The translations under genes were made by a program, and so were the position numbers. From NCBI GenBank assembly GCA_032622095.1, contig CP136067.1:75046705-75110704 (forward strand): a DNA stretch of 64,000 nt. Direction: 5' to 3'. The stretch comes from Siphonodentalium dalli. Taxonomy: Eukaryota > Mollusca > Scaphopoda > Gadilida > Siphonodentaliidae. How positions within the stretch are numbered: the stretch's first letter is position 1; each line of letters begins with the position of its first letter. The notes under the pieces are model-generated. The model made no database searches, was not told the origin of the DNA, and saw nothing but the letters and a program-made list of their open reading frames with translations. Below, one piece after another: positions 25,196-36,398 of this stretch.

Positions 25196-26375
25196 TTATT
25201 AGATGAGAAACTGAAACTGTAAGTATTGGAAGTATTGGAAGAATACGGTATAAGAGGGCAACTACATACATGGCTAACATCCTTCCTCACCAAAAGAAAA
25301 ATGAAAGTAGTACTTGAAGGCCACAGTTCCACCGAGGTAGACGTGGACTCCGGAGTACCGCAGGGAACAGTATTGGGGCCTCTCCTGTTCCTTTGCCATA
25401 TTAATGACTTACCGGACACAGTGTCATCAACAGTACGACTCTTCGCAGATGACTGTCTGCTATACAGACAAATAAACTCCATCAAAGACCAGGTCATACT
25501 CCAACACGACTTAAAGAGCCTTGAGACATGGGCAAAAAACTGGGGCATGACATTCAACGCCAAAAAATGCTACGTGATGAGTCTAAAAGGAAAACACAGC
25601 AAATACTACACGCTGGATGGCGAAATACTCAGCCAAGTCAACACCAACCCATATCTTGGTATCCAGATTTCTAAAGACCTGAAATGGACATCACAGGTGA
25701 ACAACACGGCCAAGAAAGCTAGTGCCACACTCGGTTTTCTCAGAAGAAACCTGAAGTTTATGCCAGAAAAATCCAAGAGAACTGCCTACATATCATTAGT
25801 AAGATCAATAATGGACTATGGAGCTATAGTTTGGGACCCCTACCAGCAGAAAAATATTCAACGAAAGGCAGCAAGATTCATCACTGGAGACTACAGGTCA
25901 AGAGAAGATGGCAGCATGACGAGAATGTTGAAAGAACAACAATTACCAACACTTCATGCTGTCGAAAAACACAGCGCCTAACCTACTTTTATAAGGTGGC
26001 AGAGGGTCTGGTACCGGCTATACAAACAAACAACTTCCTAACTAAGGCTAAGGCAAGGAGGAGAATCAAACCAAAACAATTCAAGGACCATCAAACAACA
26101 AATATCCTTGAGAGGAGAGAGACGAACAATAATAAGTGCTTTGAAATACCATCAACATCCTGTGACCAGTACAAACATTCATTCTTTGTGGACACAGCAG
26201 TGTACTGGAACAAATTACACCAAGACGTTGTTGCACTAAACACACCAGAAGAATTCGCAGCTGCGCTATCAGAAACATCTGCAGCAGCTGTTGGCGCCGC
26301 GCAATAACATCGCCCACCGCCCGTCCTATCATACCAAATTGGTTACTTGGACGTATTTATCCAGATCCAGATTCA
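25196..26375 (+). pseudogene. LINE (Jockey/CR1-like) reverse transcriptase, 5'-truncated, one frameshift
   Basis: The first frame (to 25981) carries RT blocks: 'GVPQGTVLGPLLFLCHINDL' (residues 43-62 of the 25226 translation), then the catalytic 'FADD' (73-76) and 'NPYLGIQISKDLKWTSQV'. Next is the C-terminal 'WDPYQQKNIQRKAARFITGD' typical of Jockey/CR1-group LINEs. The reading shifts frame near 25970 and continues to 26307 ('RLTYFYKVAEGLVPAIQT' onward). Endonuclease and ORF1 are missing, as in a normal 5' truncation. A 3' UTR-like tail runs to 'tttatccagatccagattc' near 26375. Confident as a LINE RT; the clade is less sure. Confidence 0.9.
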
Positions 26376-27386: not shown

Positions 27387-28530
27387 CGGAACGTCGAAAT
27401 ACCAAGCAGAACCAAGCTGAAGAAAACTAATGCGGAAAATGACACTTAAAGCATGTTTTGTGGTGTATAATGAAGAAATAAACCATAATAATGCAACATG
27501 ACGTGGTTTTTTTTGACTTTTGATATCACAGCGAGCGTAAAACTAGAAAACAGTGCGGCGATCGCGAAAAACTTCAGCTTGGTATTTCGTCGTTTACAGG
27601 TACTGCTTGGTTTATCAGCGAAGGTGATAATTAATTTTCGGGAACATAATTATGGCACTGCGCGGTAGAGCCTTTGTTGCTGATTAATTATCGATGTGCG
27701 ATCGCGGCTTACTCTGGCTTACCGAAAATATTTCAGGGATGTTTTGACAGTGATATTCAAGCTAGGTTTCACAGGTTTCATAGAAACCAAAATGGTTGAA
27801 TAAACAATATATAAGTGATGATTAAATGAGTTAATGGTGTCATATCCATGCCTATATAGAGGTCTCATATTTTCTATTTCTCCATTCTGATCATTGATAT
27901 GAGTAAATTACAACATGCCTTCAAAGTCAATACTTTATCCATGTGGTGTATGTGCCGAGGAATGTCATGAGATTCGCAGCATCGGATGCGATCTTTGTGA
28001 TCGTTGGTTCCATTTGGACTGTGAACAGCTGAAGATAAGTGATTTCCGCAAATCCCATCTGGCAGATATTAATTATCACTTATCAGCGGATAAACTAATC
28101 CATGAGACAGAAGTTTGTGTTCGCGTTATACAAAACATCTAACAAAACACTCAGTATTGAACCAAACTTCGTATAGTAATAGTTTGAACGTGAATACATA
28201 TACCGGTACCAGATAAAGGACGAGGGGAGTTTAAACAAGTCGATACTACTGGTTGTGATAGAAATTATTAGTCTTTTGGCGAACCAAGCAATTCTATATA
28301 TCGCTGATAAACCAAGCAGTAGCCAGTACCTGTAAACGACGAAATACCAAGCCGAAGTTTTTCGCGATCGCCGCACTAGTTTTATGCTCGCTGTGTCATC
28401 AAAAGTCAAATAAAACCATGTCATGTTGCATTATTATGGTTTATTTCTTCATTATACACAACAAAACATAAGTGTCATTTTCCGCCTTAGTTTTCTTCAG
28501 CTTGGTTCTGCTTGGTATTTCGACGCACCC
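27387..28530 (+). mobile_element. Long-TIR DNA element carrying a PHD-finger ORF
   Basis: Arms of about 220 bp at 27394-27615 and 28305-28524 are complementary with few differences, from 'cgtcgaaataccaagcagaa' inward to 'tgcttggtttatcagcg'. CTTTCTGA flanks the element at 27379-27386 and 28531-28538, a perfect 8-bp duplication. The outer few bases of the TIR are mismatched. A further short inverted piece ('attaattatcac', near 27630 and 28070) suggests longer arms once. Inside is a PHD-finger ORF. TSD length fits hAT, P or Zisupton-like families; no transposase is visible. Confidence 0.75.
27915..28142 (+). CDS. PHD-finger small protein within a DNA element
   Basis: A 75-residue frame from an ATG. 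Residues 9-38 have the Cys/His spacing of the first part of a PHD finger: 'CGVC' (10-13), then 'CDLC' (25-28), 'WFHLDC' (31-36). The final Cys pair expected about 15-25 residues later is not visible, so the finger is truncated or completed by a downstream exon. PHD fingers read histone tails, but several invertebrate transposable elements also encode them; the location between TIR arms supports the latter. Residues 40-75 look like readthrough into the arm. Confidence 0.55.
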   Translation: MPSKSILYPCGVCAEECHEIRSIGCDLCDRWFHLDCEQLKISDFRKSHLADINYHLSADKLIHETEVCVRVIQNI

Positions 28531-28992: not shown

Positions 28993-29151
28993 ATGTCAGA
29001 ACACCGGGATCACTGCGGATTTGCATACTCTAACTGGGTAGACGAAGATGGCAATCAGTTGAGATGCGGTTACGAAATTTTATCTGCGATTACGTTATGG
29101 GACCGGAGACTCCCAGGTAGCGATATTGGCATTAACGAACTATCGTTTTGA
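28993..29151 (+). CDS. Small ORF of unknown function with an inverted relative at 34.6 kb
   Basis: A 52-residue frame from ATG to TGA with protein-like composition ('CGFAYSNWVDEDGNQLRCGY'). The stretch 'EDGNQ-(L/F)-RCGYE' is also encoded on the minus strand at about 34605-34660. That copy has a stop just upstream. The DNA match is about 40 bp, so shared protein constraint is not proven. It lies just upstream of the Ty3/gypsy relic and could be exon-like sequence belonging to another repeat. No domain recognised. Confidence 0.3.
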   Translation: MSEHRDHCGFAYSNWVDEDGNQLRCGYEILSAITLWDRRLPGSDIGINELSF

Positions 29152-29408
29152 AGTTTAATGGCGGACTTTTACGAAAGTGTCTCGACTGCGTTGTATTTTG
29201 CCGTCATCACATTATTATTGCAATGATGATTATGTGCAGTTTATTTTAACTTTTGCACTGCAGCGTAATGGTAAGTTAGGTGTTTGTTGTTATTTATTAT
29301 ACGATTATTTATTATTTTATGACAGCGATAATCCGATTGTTAGCAAAAACAAGGTCAAACTCAAACTTTGAATTGTGTAGTAGATTTGGCAGTCCGGCTG
29401 AAGTGCGC

Positions 29409-29573
29409 ATGCGCGGGATAACACCGGCAGAGATAATTACCACGCCGACCAACAATCACTACGACCTGCTTGCTCGATATAAATCCATCAGCATCAGCCG
29501 GCCAATGACAACAATCGACGGACACTCTCTACGACGACTTGCGGGGGATACGGCACAACATATACTTGTGTAA
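29409..29573 (+). CDS. Short ORF ahead of the pol fragment; possible gag start or leader
   Basis: ATG at 29409, 54 residues ('MRGITPAEIITTPTNNHYDL' onward), stop at 29571-29573. A consensus splice donor 'gtaagt' overlaps the stop (29570). Upstream 'tttggcagtccggctgaag' (about 29386) resembles a primer-binding site next to an LTR end, but no LTR could be paired. Joining the donor to the acceptor at 31114 would not keep the downstream ORF in frame, so a spliced fusion is not supported. Probably the deleted 5' edge of the retroelement. Confidence 0.3.
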   Translation: MRGITPAEIITTPTNNHYDLLARYKSISISRPMTTIDGHSLRRLAGDTAQHILV

Positions 29574-29584
29574 GTCTACTTTAG

Positions 29585-31084
29585 TGGCGTCGTCGACAGG
29601 ATTGGATTAACACTCAACGAAGCGACACAGAAATTCAGTTGATTTTCCGATGGTTACTGTGGAAAGAAGAGCCGACCGAGGAGATCCTGTTCCGATCGAG
29701 CCCAGAAGCTAAAAACTACTGGATCAATCGAAAACGATTCCTCATGAGGGATGGGCTCATTCACCGCAAACGCCGGGACGGGACACCGGTCTTGTGGATC
29801 CCACAGGCTTACCGGCAAGAACTCTTATCCCTTTGCCATGACTCTCCAGTGAGCGGCCATCAAGGATGGTCCCGAACTAAAGAGAGGTTAAAAACGCAGT
29901 ATTACTGGTACCACATGAGTACAAAGGCGGAAGAGTTCGTGAAGTCGTGCCGAGAATGCAACCTGCACAAGAAGCCTTCTAGAAAGGCACGATACCCTCT
30001 GACCATCTATCAATCCGGGGCGCCAATGGAAAGGATCCATATTGATTTCATTGGCCCGCTAACCAAAACCGCGGATGGGAACGAACACATCTTAATGATG
30101 GTGGAACAATTCACCAAATGGGTTGAATGTATACCGTTGCCATCACAGACGGCAGAACAGACGGCAACAGCTGCGGTGATAGGATTTTTCTGCAGATTTG
30201 GTTTTCCGCTACAAATATTCTCGGATCAAGGCAGAAATTTTGAGAGTGCAGTATTTACGCAGATGTGTGAAATGTTACACATTCATAAAGCAAGGACAAC
30301 CCCCTATCACCCCTCTAGTAATGGGCAAGTGGAACGCTACAACCGGACACTGATGGATGCGGTTCGCTGTTTCGTATCCAAGAAAAGCAATGACTGGGAT
30401 AAACATGTTCCCCTCGTCGCCAGCGCAATGCGTTCCTCCTTAAATCGGAGAACGGGATACACCCCGAACCGACTAATGTTGGGAAGAGAGGTAAACCATC
30501 CAGCAGATATAGTCTTCAAACCGCCTTCCGTGAGGGCTGACAGCTACTTGCCAGAGTATGTCCAAACTTTACAAGAGGGACTAAGGGAAGCACATGCAAG
30601 TGCCCGTAAATCACTGGAAACCACACAATATGTGATGAAGAGGGACTATGACGTGAAGGCCAAGATCGTCCAATACAAACCAGGGGATGCGGTTTACCTA
30701 TTGGACCCAAGCATTAAAAAAGGGCAGAGCAAGAAACTCTGTCCAGTATGGAAGGGGCCGGGCCTAGTTTTAGACCAGGTGATGCCATACATATTCCGGG
30801 TACAGATGTATAGAACAATGATGACAGTCAACCACGACCGTCTGAAACCCTGTAATGACAGGGACTTGCCAGACTGGCTGAAAAAACGACGAAGGAAACA
30901 GAAAGACATTAGTTCAAAGCAAGCCACCTATTGTACATGTGGGAAGGGAGATGACGGTCGCCTTATGATTCAATGTGAAACTTGCTTCGACTGGTACCAT
31001 GCAGCTTGCTTAGGCTTGACGCAGGAAGACGTTGATAGGGTAACGAAATATCTGTGTGATTCCTGCAGAATAGGCAGGGACTAA
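29585..31084 (+). CDS. Ty3/gypsy-type integrase with C-terminal PHD finger (pol 3' fragment)
   Basis: The frame is open from 29585, with no ATG needed because it is the 3' part of a pol polyprotein. Residues below count from 29639. The RNase H-integrase linker comes first ('SPEAKNYW'). Next is the HHCC zinc domain, H67, H74, C104, C107. The DDE core has D136 ('IHIDFIGP'), D196 ('FSDQGRNFE') and E232 ('NGQVERYN'), with 35 residues between the last two, as in active integrases. A GPY/F-like module ('CPVWKGPG' to 'VNHDRLKP') spans about 368-404. A full PHD finger follows: C432, C434, C446, C449, H454, C457, C473, C476, with Trp at 452. Chromodomains are the usual tail in related elements; a PHD there suggests chromatin-guided insertion. 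Protease, RT and RNase H are missing upstream. No break occurs in the 1.5 kb, so loss of RT was recent or this copy uses factors in trans. Confidence 0.9.
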   Translation, partial: WRRRQDWINTQRSDTEIQLIFRWLLWKEEPTEEILFRSSPEAKNYWINRKRFLMRDGLIHRKRRDGTPVLWIPQAYRQELLSLCHDSPVSGHQGWSRTKERLKTQYYWYHMSTKAEEFVKSCRECNLHKKPSRKARYPLTIYQSGAPMERIHIDFIGPLTKTADGNEHILMMVEQFTKWVECIPLPSQTAEQTATAAVIGFFCRFGFPLQIFSDQGRNFESAVFTQMCEMLHIHKARTTPYHPSSNGQVERYNRTLMDAVRCFVSKKSNDWDKHVPLVASAMRSSLNRRTGYTPNRLMLGREVNHPADIVFKPPSVRADSYLPEYVQTLQEGLREAHASARKSLETTQYVMKRDYDVKAKIVQYKPGDAVYLLDPSIKKGQSKKLCPVWKGPGLVLDQVMPYIFRVQMYRTMMTVNHDRLKPCNDRDLPDWLKKRRRKQKDISSKQATYCTCGKGDDGRLMIQCETCFDWYHAACLGLTQEDVDRVTKYLCDSCRIGRD

Positions 31085-31114
31085 TTGCTGTCTTTCTTTT
31101 TCCTCTGGTTGCAG
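31081..31114 (+). promoter_or_regulatory. Consensus splice acceptor ahead of the Tpt1 ORF
   Basis: 'ctaat' (31081, overlapping the pol TAA stop) resembles a branch point. A pyrimidine-rich tract 'tgtctttctttttcctctgg' follows, then 'ttgcag' ending at 31114. The next ATG in good reading is at 31132. An acceptor here would allow a subgenomic mRNA for the third ORF, as in env-bearing retroelements. No RNA evidence is available. Confidence 0.55.
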
Positions 31115-31131
31115 GTACATGTACACGCCGC

Positions 31132-33230
31132 ATGTCATCTGAGGAGGAAGGTCTTTTAGAGGAAGGACGGCCTTGGAGGGCTCGATACAGCACAGCTGTA
31201 ACAGCCGGAACCCCAAGGTCACCTTCAAAACGGGAAGTCACCATCAGTGATGGTAAAATAGCAGCCATCTCTGATGGCGAACTAAAAGGGAAGTGACCAT
31301 CGGTGATGGTATAAACCAAGAACTCAGGAGATCACCAAGGAAGTGGGGACCAGTGAGCCTAGCCACCGACAAGGATGGTCCATCCCTAACTAAGCTTTCT
31401 AGACTGGGAGGAACACCCAAGAGAAGGGTGGTAATCACGGACAAGCCATCTCTGATGGCTTCACCAACGATCGATCAGCGGGAAGTCGGGAACCAGCCAT
31501 CACAGATGGCATTGAGACCCAAACAACCTGAGGGGGGGCAGCCATCACAGATGGCATTGAGACCCACACAACCTGAGGGGAACCAGCCATCACAGATGGC
31601 ATTGAAACCCACACAATCTGAGGAACTAGCCCAATTAGGACGGTTCCTAGTGGGCATGATGAGGCATGGTAACAATATGCCAGAAGAATGGAAAGGGAGT
31701 ATGGCGGCCAATGGAAGCTTACCCCTGGATTTGATCCTCTCCCATCCACAACTGACAGGGGTGTCTCAAGATACCATTATAGGGATGGTTGACACCGATG
31801 AAAAACAACGATGGGGTCTAGAAATGAGCCTGGAAGACACTAGCCATCCCCGATGGCTGTTGAAAGCACGACAGGGCCATAGTGACACCATGCCAGTGAC
31901 AGAGGAGGGGCTATGCCCTGCTACACTAGAGACCTGCCCAGCGGCAGTGCATGGCACATTCCACCGCCACTGGGAAAGCATTAAAGCACAGGGACTGAGC
32001 CGGCGAAAACGGAAGCATATTCACTTTGGCCACGATGATAAAGTCTTGGGAGTGGGGGCAAGAACCAACGCCGAAATACTTATGTATCTGGACGTACCCC
32101 AGTGCCTGGAGGGAAACAGAATCCCAATATTTCTAGCTGAAAATGGGGTTATCCTAAGCCCGGGAAATAGGGATGGCTTTATCCCCATGCCCTTTTTCCA
32201 CCAAGTGATTGATCGCCAGACGGGGACGACAATATGGAAACCCCTGGAACTGCCTGTCCCATCCAGGAGGGATAGCGTGGAGATGCCCATCATCGAATCC
32301 GACTCCGACAGTGAGAGGGAAGATCAATCAGTCAGTCAACAAAAGCAGCTGGAAATGCCAACTGTGATGGCAACGAGTGGGAGAGATGAAGGTGACATCC
32401 AGAAATTGCTGGGGGTGACCCAAACAGGGCAATTAGAAGAATCCATCACCCCGATGGAAGTAGATCCACCCTCGGAGTCTAGAGTAGACCCACCAACGAT
32501 AGACCCACCAACGATAGACCTCGGCAACGGAGGCGCACTAGGAGATCCATCACCGATGGACCCTAATGTGATCGGTCGACAGCTCAGAACTGAGATTGCT
32601 AGGGGAGATATCTCAAAGGAAGGGGTGGCACAGGTCATACAGGACATGACCAGCAATGAAAACCTGCTACCGGCAGCCATCCTTTTCCAGATCCTTTACG
32701 GAAGACCCGGCTTCATGTTAAAGGAAAAGGCCTTGGAGTTACTGGATGGCCAATATAGACTGGCGCTAAGATTAGAGAAGCTCTCGTGGATCGGCGCAGC
32801 GAGGCAAGAGGGAGAGTTCTATCACTCCAACACATGGAACTCTATACACCTCCAGTACACCAGCAACGATCCCATCAAGGAGGACGTGCGGCTAAGGGTG
32901 GTAGGAGGGGCAGAGAGAGTTCTCTATATGAAGGACACGGCTATGGAAACCTCATCATTTGTCATGGACCTAAAACCGGTAGAGTCAATGGAGGTAACCC
33001 CACAACCCAGCCATCCACAGAAGCCAGGGAGATCTGCGAAAGGGACTTCAGGGAAGTCACAACCAAATGCTGCACAGACCCTGACATATGGGAAGTCTCA
33101 GCCTCAACAGGCGCCTGTAAAGCGGAAACAGACTTCACCGAAGTCGCAGCAGCAGGTCTCGCAGACTTCAGGGACTTTCGTCGAACAACATATTGCTAAA
33201 TATCACGATTCGGGCAATTTTATACTATAG
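31132..33230 (+). CDS. Accessory ORF with a Tpt1/KptA RNA 2'-phosphotransferase domain (one frameshift near the start)
   Basis: Tpt1/KptA enzymes move the splice-junction 2'-phosphate of RNA to NAD+. ATG at 31132 opens 54 residues to a TGA at 31294. The frame starting at 31293 then runs 645 residues. The repeated 'KREVTI(S/G)DG' across the junction shows a one-base loss near 31288. In the 645-residue frame, residues 112-308 follow the family end to end: 'LGRFLVGMMRHG' (115-126), 'LDLILSHPQL' (145-154), 'DEKQRWGL' (169-176), 'KARQGHS' (191-197), 'VHGTFHRHWESIKAQGLSRR' (219-238), 'KHIHF', 'GARTNAEILMYLDV' (255-268), 'NGVILSPGNRDGFIP' (284-298). The catalytic set aligns as R124, H125, R173, R257. 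Before the domain are three 15-residue repeats (QPSQMAL). After it come acidic and proline-rich linkers, an unknown helical region (about 425-560) and a Ser/Gln/Lys-rich tail. It is intronless, directly follows the integrase, and shares its strand. A host TRPT1 retrocopy is the alternative. Confidence 0.85.
31494..31628 (+). repeat. Three in-frame 45-bp tandem repeats (15-residue QPSQMAL units)
   Basis: Units start at 31494, 31539 and 31584 with 'cagccatcacagatggcatt'. Each encodes QPSQMAL(R/K)P(K/T)Q(P/S)E plus two residues. Each unit contains the inverted word CCATC-aca-GATGG. Confidence 0.95.
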
Positions 33231-34733
33231 TTGACAGTGGTTATCATTGTTTTTGGCAATTAATAGATTCTGATAACTGATGCGGCATTTCTAAAAAATT
33301 AAAAATGTTGTTAGACTCTCATTATATGGGGAACATCGAATCGGATTGAGTACCTTTAACCAACATGGGGTCCTATGTACCAGCAATTTTGAGATTGACT
33401 CCACCTGACAGAGTTGTTTCCATTTTGGACTTTAATATACAAAAAACAATAAACCCAACCCACCCAAATTCTTGTCCCTACATGGTTGATATAAGTTTTG
33501 TAGGATCAGTGTAGACTTAAATGAAGTCTGAACTGCCCCAAAGACAACATACCAGACCTCGATGTTTTATTAACTAGAACATAACGTAACACGTTAATAC
33601 TATATAGGGAATGTATAGAACTCAATTATTCACAAAATCCATCTCTGACCGGTACCAACCTATATACAAACCACTGTGGTTGTAACGCTAGGTTTTAAAG
33701 AGCGTTTTTTCTTCGAAGAAATATATATTGACTAAATAACGAAGGTATTCATAAATAATAAAAAATAAAGAGCGTTTGTTTAGTCGAAGAAATCTATAGT
33801 GACTAAATAACGGAGATATTCATAAATAATAAGCGTTTTAAAGAGCGTTTTTAAAGAGGTGATACCATAAAATATTCCTGAACTTTAAATGGGTTTACCA
33901 TACTCTAACAGAGTAGAGCCATGTAAACTATGGTTTATCTGGCTTTTATGGCCAGTTAATTTTCCTTATAATATTATCATAAGCTGGAGTTAGATATTAA
34001 GCAAATGTTTAATTTGAGTTTGTTACTGCCATGGATATGTATCTTTATTTAGGTGTGTTCCTAGATAAGTTTTTGAAACTTCAGAACTTCATATTTCTGC
34101 ATACAATTTAAATACAAAAATTAATTATACAACATCAATATGAACTTGCAACTTTATGATTTTCAGAACTAGATGGGCACCCCCCCCCCCCCCCAATCGT
34201 TCATATGGTGTCATATCAGTTGACACATCTAGAATAAACATTTTCTGGTCCACCCGGCTTGATCGAAACAACGGAGATGAAGAACGAGCGATGTTGCATG
34301 GCATCACCCGCCCGACCACGATGATCCAAGTAATCATGTGGGGAGGCTTAACGTGGATGTAAATGCTATTCATCGACATATAAACACGGTTACGCGAACT
34401 GGGCCAAGTAATTGCAATTGGTGGTCTTTAAATCCGCGTAATAGAGGCTCGAACACTTTGTATCTGTGAGTATAATATTGCGTTCGTCCGGTACGGCAAA
34501 CCGACAGTACGTTTTAGCTGACGCGATGACGTCACGAATACGTGTGTTGACATGAGTGCGGAAAAGTTCCCAGTCAAAGTTCGTACTCTATGCCATTATT
34601 TTCGTAACCGCATCTGAACTGATTGCCATCTTCGCCTACCCTCTAACTGCAGACCCCAAACTTCATCTGGATATTCTGGGTGAGCACTAGATGGGTATGG
34701 CAAGCCGTTTTCACATTTTCGATTTATTTGGAC
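33231..34733. other. Non-coding 3' flank of the retroelement; minisatellite at 33690-33865
   Basis: No LTR could be matched to the 5' side. About 33690-33865 holds two to three units of ~66 bp: 'aaagagcgtttgtttagtcg', then 'gaagaaat', 'gactaaataacgg' and 'attcataaataataa'. A C homopolymer lies at 34181. At 34605-34660 is the inverted relative of the 28993 small ORF. The segment 34480-34640 contains CpG-containing unique-looking sequence without a gene. Confidence 0.5.
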
Positions 34734-34737
34734 TTAA

Positions 34738-36398
34738 CACGTTCACTGCCGAAAACCAATGGGTAATTCCATCCCGTATGCCAACATGGGATTTGATGTT
34801 TTACCGATAGTAGATGATATTTTACGTATGTATGAGTAATGGTTCGACCAATATCGGGTCATATGATGCTGAAACATGTTATAAGACTACTACGAGATAA
34901 CTCGTAGTCGGCACCTGGGACGGAAGTTATTAGTGTTTCATCCCTGGTGCCAGCTACGAGTTATCTCGTAGGTAAATACAATTACGTTGTCAGTGTCTTA
35001 GATGACGAAGGTGCTATACATGTACAAGCATATCGTATGTAAGACATGGTAACTGAATTTATATATGATAATTGGTACAAACTACGTCGAATAAGACGTA
35101 AAAAAACATAATATGTAATTACCTACGAGATAACTCGTAGCTGGTACCAACGATGACCACTGGTGAGTTTCATCCCAGGTGCCGACTACGAGTTATCTCG
35201 TAACTAGTAGGAGCTTTATAACACGTTTCATCTTCATTTGACCGGGATTTTATCGACAAAAATTGTATAAAGCACGATAATTCCTTTATATATACACAAT
35301 GTGTCCGGGAATGGTCTAGTTGCAGATGTATATCATGGTTCATGGACTTACAGAAGAGGTCCTGGTGAATTGGAGTATCCTACCAAGATTTCTATCTGGA
35401 CCCCACCCCTTGTTCGGGCTGTGGGAATCGTTGTATCTCAAGCCATCGTAATTATACATATAAAATCGATCAATGGCATCGTTGCAGTCTGAGTAAACTC
35501 ATACCTAAATATGCATTACAACATTGAATATTATGTCTGACGGATAACATCGCTATCTCATTTCCAAGTCCTCGGGATTCCGTAATCTGATTGATTGCGT
35601 ATATTATTTTCCGTCCAATGAAACCGTATGGGTTAATAAACAAGTGTTAGTGGGCGGAGACTCCCACAATGTCACCTCTAAATATAGTAACAGATCGGAA
35701 TTTCGTCGGTATTTCTCCGATCGATAGCGATGCTTGCAAATACAACAGAGACAGAAAAAATGGCTTCGAAATTATTTGGTACGATTCGGATTAATTTGAA
35801 GGATGTGCTAGACCTGATAGATAGGCCTGCGCATGGTACCAACTTGGCCTCCCATAAATATAAATAGAACTCACTCATGTCCGTGTATTTGATTTACTTT
35901 ATTGTAACATGGTTTGCAAATCAAATTATTTGTCGTAAAAAAGTCATCTGAAAGTGAAAGTTAAACACCGAGGAAATGACTTAATTTTATGCTTTTAAAT
36001 AGTTCTAAAGCATCATTTTTGATGACGACCTTATTTTTTGCTCTCGGATGCAGCTTTCCGGTTGATGCAGCGAGTTCATCTCCCGAAAAAGAATAGTCGC
36101 ACACGACAAATATTATCTTCTGTAAGTTCATGTCGCGACACAGGCCATTGTTTGCGAAGCACAACAAATAACACGTGGGGACACCTGTCAATCACCGATG
36201 TATTTTTTTAAATCCGTGACGTCATTTTGGGGGGAGCTCTTCGCTGAATAGAAATGGTTTTGGCGACATTAGCTCCAGAACATTTCTTGCGGTTTGTGTT
36301 ATTATTTATGTGGTATGAACATTACTACGAGTTAACTCGTAGTAGCAGTCCCCATGGAACCGTTTACTACGAGTTAACTCGTAGTGGCAGTGAACGTG
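34738..36398. mobile_element. piggyBac-like element B (TTAA target), non-autonomous
   Basis: TTAA lies outside both ends (34734-34737 and 36399-36402). The TIR is CACGTTCACTGCC at the left with its complement at the right. Subterminal palindromes CTACGAGATAACTCGTAG or variants occur as pairs at about 34891/34958, 35123/35189 and 36325/36365. The last pair directly abuts the right TIR. No transposase frame exists in the 1.66 kb. Class is inferred from TTAA and TIR style. Confidence 0.85.

Follow-up and report, generated by a model that had tools for sequence, protein, structure and literature searches.

A Ty3/Gypsy-like retrotransposon copy with a Tpt1 domain belongs to families whose third gene joins Tpt1 to a TatD nuclease

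The truncated copy in the window

The stretch analysed here, hereafter the window, is 64,000 nucleotides of the Siphonodentalium dalli genome (contig CP136067.1, positions 75,046,705 to 75,110,704, forward strand). By its sequence, the element that we describe in it is a broken deletion derivative of a Ty3/Gypsy-like long terminal repeat (LTR) retrotransposon, in which the integrase is followed by a domain of the RNA 2'-phosphotransferase Tpt1/KptA. In fuller copies elsewhere in the same genome this domain belongs to a third open reading frame (ORF3) that also encodes a C2H2 zinc finger and a TatD nuclease. Because the TatD half is missing here, the fusion is invisible from the window alone, and since this copy is itself damaged, it is the family as a whole that deserves attention. 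The features of the window copy are as follows.

29375..29601, + strand: LTR of family A, opening with TGTAGTAG; the integrase part comes directly after it
29639..31084, + strand: pol remnant with an H2C2 zinc-binding domain, an rve integrase core and a PHD finger (Pfam)
31085..31114, + strand: pyrimidine-rich tract ending in TTGCAG, a candidate 3' splice site for ORF3; the arrangement is alike in four families
31132..31292, + strand: N-terminal start of ORF3 with ATG at 31132, out of frame with the remainder in the window copy (from sibling ORFs)
31293..33230, + strand: ORF of 645 amino acids, element-derived to about 33184, where the main alignments to the sibling loci L009-L013 stop
31488..31623, + strand: three copies of a 46-bp repeat in the N-terminal linker of ORF3 (repeat analysis)
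31626..32216, + strand: Tpt1/KptA RNA 2'-phosphotransferase domain with R124, H125, R173 and R257 (Pfam, alignment)
32562..32810, + strand: helical module 3' of Tpt1 that matches no known family (AlphaFold2 model of 31578-33062)

A preliminary description of the window had read the Tpt1/KptA domain as complete and had placed an Arg-His-Arg-Arg tetrad at the four residues listed. Both claims were borne out: PF01885 matched the domain over its full length (E 5.5e-33; 114.9 bits, cut-off 26), and alignment confirmed the residues. According to the available text of PMC6333775, this tetrad is what defines Tpt1, which moves an RNA 2'-phosphate onto NAD+.

The remaining pieces were placed by comparison with the siblings. 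The pol remnant gave Pfam matches to PF17921 (E 1.5e-18), PF00665 (1.1e-11) and PF00628 (2.2e-09). The LTR matched the stretch 3' of ORF3 in L011, L012 and L013 (209-227 bp, 95-99%), and further pieces of it were found at 214-374 of L012 and 4614-4738 of L013. In L009 and L010 the sibling ORFs run unbroken from MSSEEEG..., whereas in the window the ORF3 frame is broken between the ATG at 31132 and 31293. Compared with its siblings, the window copy lacks gag, protease, reverse transcriptase (RT), RNase H, the C2H2 finger, TatD and a second LTR. The helical module corresponds to residues 329-411 of the model, a block with predicted local distance difference test (pLDDT) scores of 62-91, and had no Pfam match above the cut-off in the family A and B pieces. 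By eye, a stretch near the N-terminal side of the family C ORF3 resembles it.

Four families with a Tpt1-C2H2-TatD gene

Searching the 2.23-Gb genome (9 contigs) with the window ORF gave at least 78 matches (68 of 124 candidates scored), which cluster into 59 loci; in 25 of these a frame of at least 800 amino acids is open. Twenty loci, L009-L028, were examined closely. Family A comprises the window copy and L009-L013, family B L014-L017, L025 and L026, family C L018-L020 together with the divergent L027, and family D L021-L024, while L028 is a decayed relative of family A. With profiles built for this analysis, integrase, Tpt1 and TatD were found in this order on one strand in 16 of the 20 loci. 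The exceptions were L013 (no integrase), L025 (no TatD), L027 (Tpt1 alone) and L028 (a TatD remnant only). Whether other copies keep integrase and Tpt1 in one order was a check proposed in the preliminary description; they do, with TatD as a third member. In the fuller copies ORF3 is a frame of 950-1492 amino acids in which Tpt1 is followed by a C2H2 zinc finger and then a TatD nuclease. Pfam, run on one ORF3 per family, recovered both Tpt1 and TatD in all four (PF01026, E 3.1e-39 to 9.5e-36), the latter being absent from the window copy.

The upstream genes of the siblings are those of a retroelement. RT, RNase H, H2C2, integrase core and PHD domains were found by Pfam in the pol frames of families A, B, C and D, and the protease exceeded the Pfam cut-off in A, B and C and fell below it in D. 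Protease, RT and RNase H are encoded in the pol frame itself or immediately 5' of it; in L011, of family A, all three share the frame of the integrase. The four families share this pol plus ORF3 architecture, which supports the earlier proposal, the capture of an NAD-dependent RNA-repair enzyme by a retroelement family, and extends it to a fusion with C2H2 and TatD.

The ends of the element were recovered from the family D copy L022 and its neighbouring stretch L029. This copy measures about 12.5 kb from one outer end to the other, its two 278-bp LTRs are identical and have TGT...ACA ends, and GAAA stands on both outer sides. Its identical LTRs, their ends and the GAAA flanks mark it as an LTR retrotransposon that inserted recently. 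Three copies were examined for such a pair, and none was found for L015 and L020 in the stretches searched. The sequence after the L022 LTR, TGGCGACGAG, presumably resembles the complement of a tRNA-Ser end. The L022/L029 termini do not fit Troyka, for which the available part of PMC12440569 gives CG...CG termini and a 3-bp duplication.

From the window alone, our first reading had been a Ginger1-type cut-and-paste DNA transposon and not a retroelement. Ginger1 has a Gypsy-like integrase, a PHD finger is listed for one Ginger1 transposase family (PMC2836005, available part), no RT stands beside the integrase in the window taken by itself, and inverted repeats (29036-29077 and 34600-34641) lie on both sides of the region. 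We dropped this reading on the RT, RNase H and LTRs of the sibling copies, which carry a protease as well. Ginger1 also differs in being a DNA transposon with terminal inverted repeats, in its termini and in its extra domains, OTU or Ulp1 proteases (same part of PMC2836005), and the window repeats have GGGTAG starts and TCTAACT flanks, not TGTNR ends with CCGG/CCGT. Lying outside the LTR, they belong to something else, and we give the Ginger1 reading practically no credence. The repeats themselves are 42 bp long and 95% complementary, with the GGGTAG start and with TCTAACT on both outer flanks; the LTR-element fragment seems to be nested in an element of 5.6 kb that ends in inverted repeats and is flanked by a 7-bp duplication.

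With Ty3/Gypsy elements (Metaviridae) the families share the order protease, RT, RNase H, integrase, the TGT...ACA LTRs and a 4-bp flanking repeat, and some Ty3/Gypsy relatives (chromoviruses, errantiviruses, Gypsy elements carrying a DNA methyltransferase) likewise have an extra gene after pol. Unlike in these comparators, the extra gene is Tpt1-C2H2-TatD with no membrane protein, a PHD finger ends the integrase, and the gag-like ORF of family B opens with a helix-hairpin-helix (PF12836). Chromodomains, DNA methyltransferases and env genes are known additions to LTR retrotransposons (PMC6338049 and PMC12440569, in their available parts). A word search of the available text of PMC6338049 returned no TatD, PHD or phosphotransferase, and among the literature matches listed (titles and the starts of abstracts) no description of Tpt1 or TatD in LTR retrotransposons was found. 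The element is therefore of a known kind, an LTR retrotransposon with an accessory gene; its cargo is unexpected.

Gag-like ORFs 5' of pol, examined in families B and D, are 790 and 977 amino acids long, and PF12836 (E 3.3e-09) in family B was the sole match above the cut-off. The ORFs of both B (L030:1477-3846, - strand) and D (L029:1-2931, - strand) open with a helix-hairpin-helix motif, for which the PF00633 match (E 3.3e-04) was below the cut-off. At one family C locus (L031:1-2373, + strand), 1848 bp identical to part of ORF3 continue into a frame with a zinc-knuckle-like end just 5' of pol, which may reflect rearrangement, recombination or a faulty assembly.

Active sites, selection and descent

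The Arg-His-Arg-Arg tetrad was intact in all six aligned sequences of families A-D, and a motif search of 14 ORF3s found the R-H pair in 13 and KxR in all 14. All five TatD motifs (DSHFH, GE[IV]GLD, LH[LF]RG, HLHC, ETD) were present in 12 of these 14, the misses being the window copy and L027, neither of which extends to TatD. Structure searches with the element TatD part returned TatD enzymes. TatD enzymes are 3'-5' exonucleases and apurinic/apyrimidinic (AP) endonucleases, and an extra HxH separates class II (PMC10085689, available part). This HxH is present in the element TatD, which shares it and the five motifs with the class II enzymes TATDN2 and TATDN3, unlike which it forms the C-terminal part of a retroelement protein. 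The Tpt1 part shares the full-length domain, the tetrad and the fold with cellular Tpt1/KptA/TRPT1 (PF01885), and its identity to the bivalve and vertebrate proteins used for comparison is 32-43%. It differs in that a retroelement ORF encodes it in fusion with a zinc finger and TatD. Both predicted enzymes kept their active sites while the families diversified.

Alternatively, Tpt1 in ORF3 might be a non-catalytic RNA- or NAD-binding module, with TatD doing the work. The divergent orphan L027, which keeps a frame of 486 amino acids with altered active-site residues, would fit such a module, and the tetrad retained in the family A-D alignment argues against it; we consider it improbable. The L027 ORF (4920-6377, + strand) is solitary and ORF3-derived, with Tpt1 and C2H2 and without TatD. 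Its 10-kb stretch gave no match to the pol of family C or D. Its Tpt1 is 71-72% identical to family C, with RH changed to RY and HGT to HST. A frame open despite an altered active site may mark a domesticated gene or a divergent element lineage.

Between families, protein identity is 48-62% for pol; in the three pairs computed it is 37-45% for Tpt1 and 43-46% for TatD, and by multiple alignment Tpt1 is 31-42% identical. The preliminary description had suggested that the ratio of nonsynonymous to synonymous substitution rates (dN/dS) be examined. For Tpt1 it was 0.21 between the window and L010, 0.20 between the window and L009, 0.33 between L015 and L017 and 0.17 between L020 and L027 at dS of about 1; five very young pairs gave 0.28, 0.56, 0.30, 0.27 and 0.13. 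For TatD it was 0.12 (L010 vs L009) and 0.10 (L015 vs L017), and five young pairs had no amino-acid change at all in this domain. Fast-evolving linkers adjoin the conserved catalytic domains in ORF3. With dN/dS mostly low, the predicted catalytic domains are under purifying selection.

The trees agree with one another. Families A and B are split from C and D with support of 100/100 in the pol tree and 99/97 in the TatD tree, and the Tpt1 tree recovers the A-B group at 99/97 and the C-D group at 94/93. In the Tpt1 tree, which also included 11 search-derived proteins (8 of them named bivalve), 2 vertebrate and 1 bacterial, the eight element sequences, L027 included, form one branch of their own with moderate support (86/87). 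The simplest account would be one old capture, then descent together with pol.

These data bear on the possibility that the window holds a chance retrocopy of the host TRPT1 beside an integrase remnant, functionless in the element. The window copy, taken alone, is truncated and broken like a stray insertion. The integrase-Tpt1-TatD order kept in most of the loci, the low identity of Tpt1 between families, the congruent trees and the low dN/dS all speak against such an origin, and the architecture common to divergent families refutes it; its probability is close to nil. Congruent pol, Tpt1 and TatD trees, conserved active sites and mostly low dN/dS point instead to an old, selected capture. The architecture of ORF3 and selection on it we regard as very nearly certain.

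Outside this genome, the 645-amino-acid window ORF had no match among 7994 scored candidates in a protein search, and an alignment of four ORF3s had one among 7995, Dreissena P0001. The Tpt1 region of L022 had 10 among 358 candidates, all with PF01885 as their lone Pfam domain, and the seven that bear an organism name are all from oysters (Crassostrea/Magallana). No relative was found among 54 pattern matches in viral contigs. In GTDB genomes, 375 pattern matches yielded nine bacterial loci in which the similarity is confined to the TatD part, with no Tpt1 in the stretches examined.

Three other features of the window lie outside the element. Long inverted repeats, 90-95% complementary, surround a spacer of about 720 bp at 27392-28525; RT-like ORFs at 25226-26307 resemble, by eye, the remnant of a non-LTR element; and an imperfect palindrome of about 390 bp, made of CTACGAGATAACTCGTAG-like units, lies at 34857-35243.

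Expression and possible function of ORF3

The predicted ORF3 occupies the place after pol where retroviruses keep their env gene. In the copies compared from all four families, the pol stop is followed at a distance of about 18-43 bases (more in L023) by an AG that closes a roughly pyrimidine-rich stretch; the start of ORF3 comes next. Such splice-acceptor-like sequence would make an env-like subgenomic mRNA possible, and it suggests env-like expression of ORF3. The predicted product is not an envelope protein: Pfam matched only Tpt1 and TatD in ORF3, with no membrane or fusion protein, and no membrane-like stretch (19 residues with hydropathy above 1.6) was found in six of seven ORF3s, the single one of L020 lying inside the Tpt1 domain.

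We propose that ORF3 would be made from a spliced subgenomic mRNA, as retroviral env is, and that its product may act on the ends of the element's own RNA or cDNA. Tpt1 would use NAD+ to strip the 2'-phosphate from damaged or re-ligated RNA or from a tRNA primer or, alternatively, would place ADP-ribose on a phosphate end; TatD would trim 3' ends or cut abasic cDNA. Candidate substrates are RNA cut by host nucleases and re-ligated, primer tRNA, phosphate ends that receive ADP-ribose and abasic cDNA. ORF3 probably works in nucleic-acid end processing in some form. For any single named substrate the case is unlikely, and the specific picture of a two-enzyme end-repair protein in the env position, its Tpt1 acting on the element's RNA or cDNA, is one that we advance tentatively.

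The same two enzymes could serve counter-defence, undoing or pre-empting a host nuclease or ADP-ribosyl attack on element RNA or cDNA through repair of 2'-phosphate scars, ADP-ribose masking of 5'-phosphates or clearance of abasic cDNA. The env-like position and accessory nature of ORF3, and linkers that evolve fast beside conserved catalytic domains, are consistent with this. It overlaps with our end-processing proposal, from which it differs solely in who causes the damage, and we think it rather doubtful.

Several observations weigh against our explanation. No copy of the element was found elsewhere in the collections searched, which may miss unannotated eukaryotic repeats. The gag-like assignments are weak, with PNMA matches (E 0.0011 for family B and 0.00012 for D) and a CCHC match in B all below the cut-off. 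Tpt1 dN/dS reaches 0.48 (L010 vs L009) and 0.56 (L015 vs L016), and over the whole ORF it comes near 1 in very young pairs (0.88 for L015 vs L016, 0.68 for L015 vs L014). The support for a single element Tpt1 branch is moderate, as given above, and that tree, the phylogenetic comparison called for in the preliminary description, sets the elements against the bivalve, vertebrate and bacterial enzymes rather than the host's own TRPT1, the closest host gene. Family D has a weak acceptor-like tract, and a search of its leader and of the opening 1.25 kb of the family B upstream stretch found no GTRAGW-type donor. Taking these points into account, we put at about 0.6 the probability of the explanation as a whole, namely that the window copy is a truncated member of an LTR-element lineage whose third gene, Tpt1-C2H2-TatD, would be expressed by splicing and act on nucleic-acid ends.

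Metazoa possess Tpt1, its role is not obvious in taxa without a fungal-type RNA ligase, and its removal from E. coli or mouse gives no phenotype (PMC6333775, available text). If the specific two-enzyme picture is true, this would be the first defined job for Tpt1 outside fungal-type tRNA splicing, in a probable animal. A selfish element that keeps a full Tpt1 active site across families offers a natural setting where the enzyme has to earn its keep, and its substrate can therefore be sought within a small, defined life cycle. With it an unexpected pair, an NAD-dependent RNA 2'-phosphotransferase and a TatD nuclease, joins the accessory genes of LTR retrotransposons.
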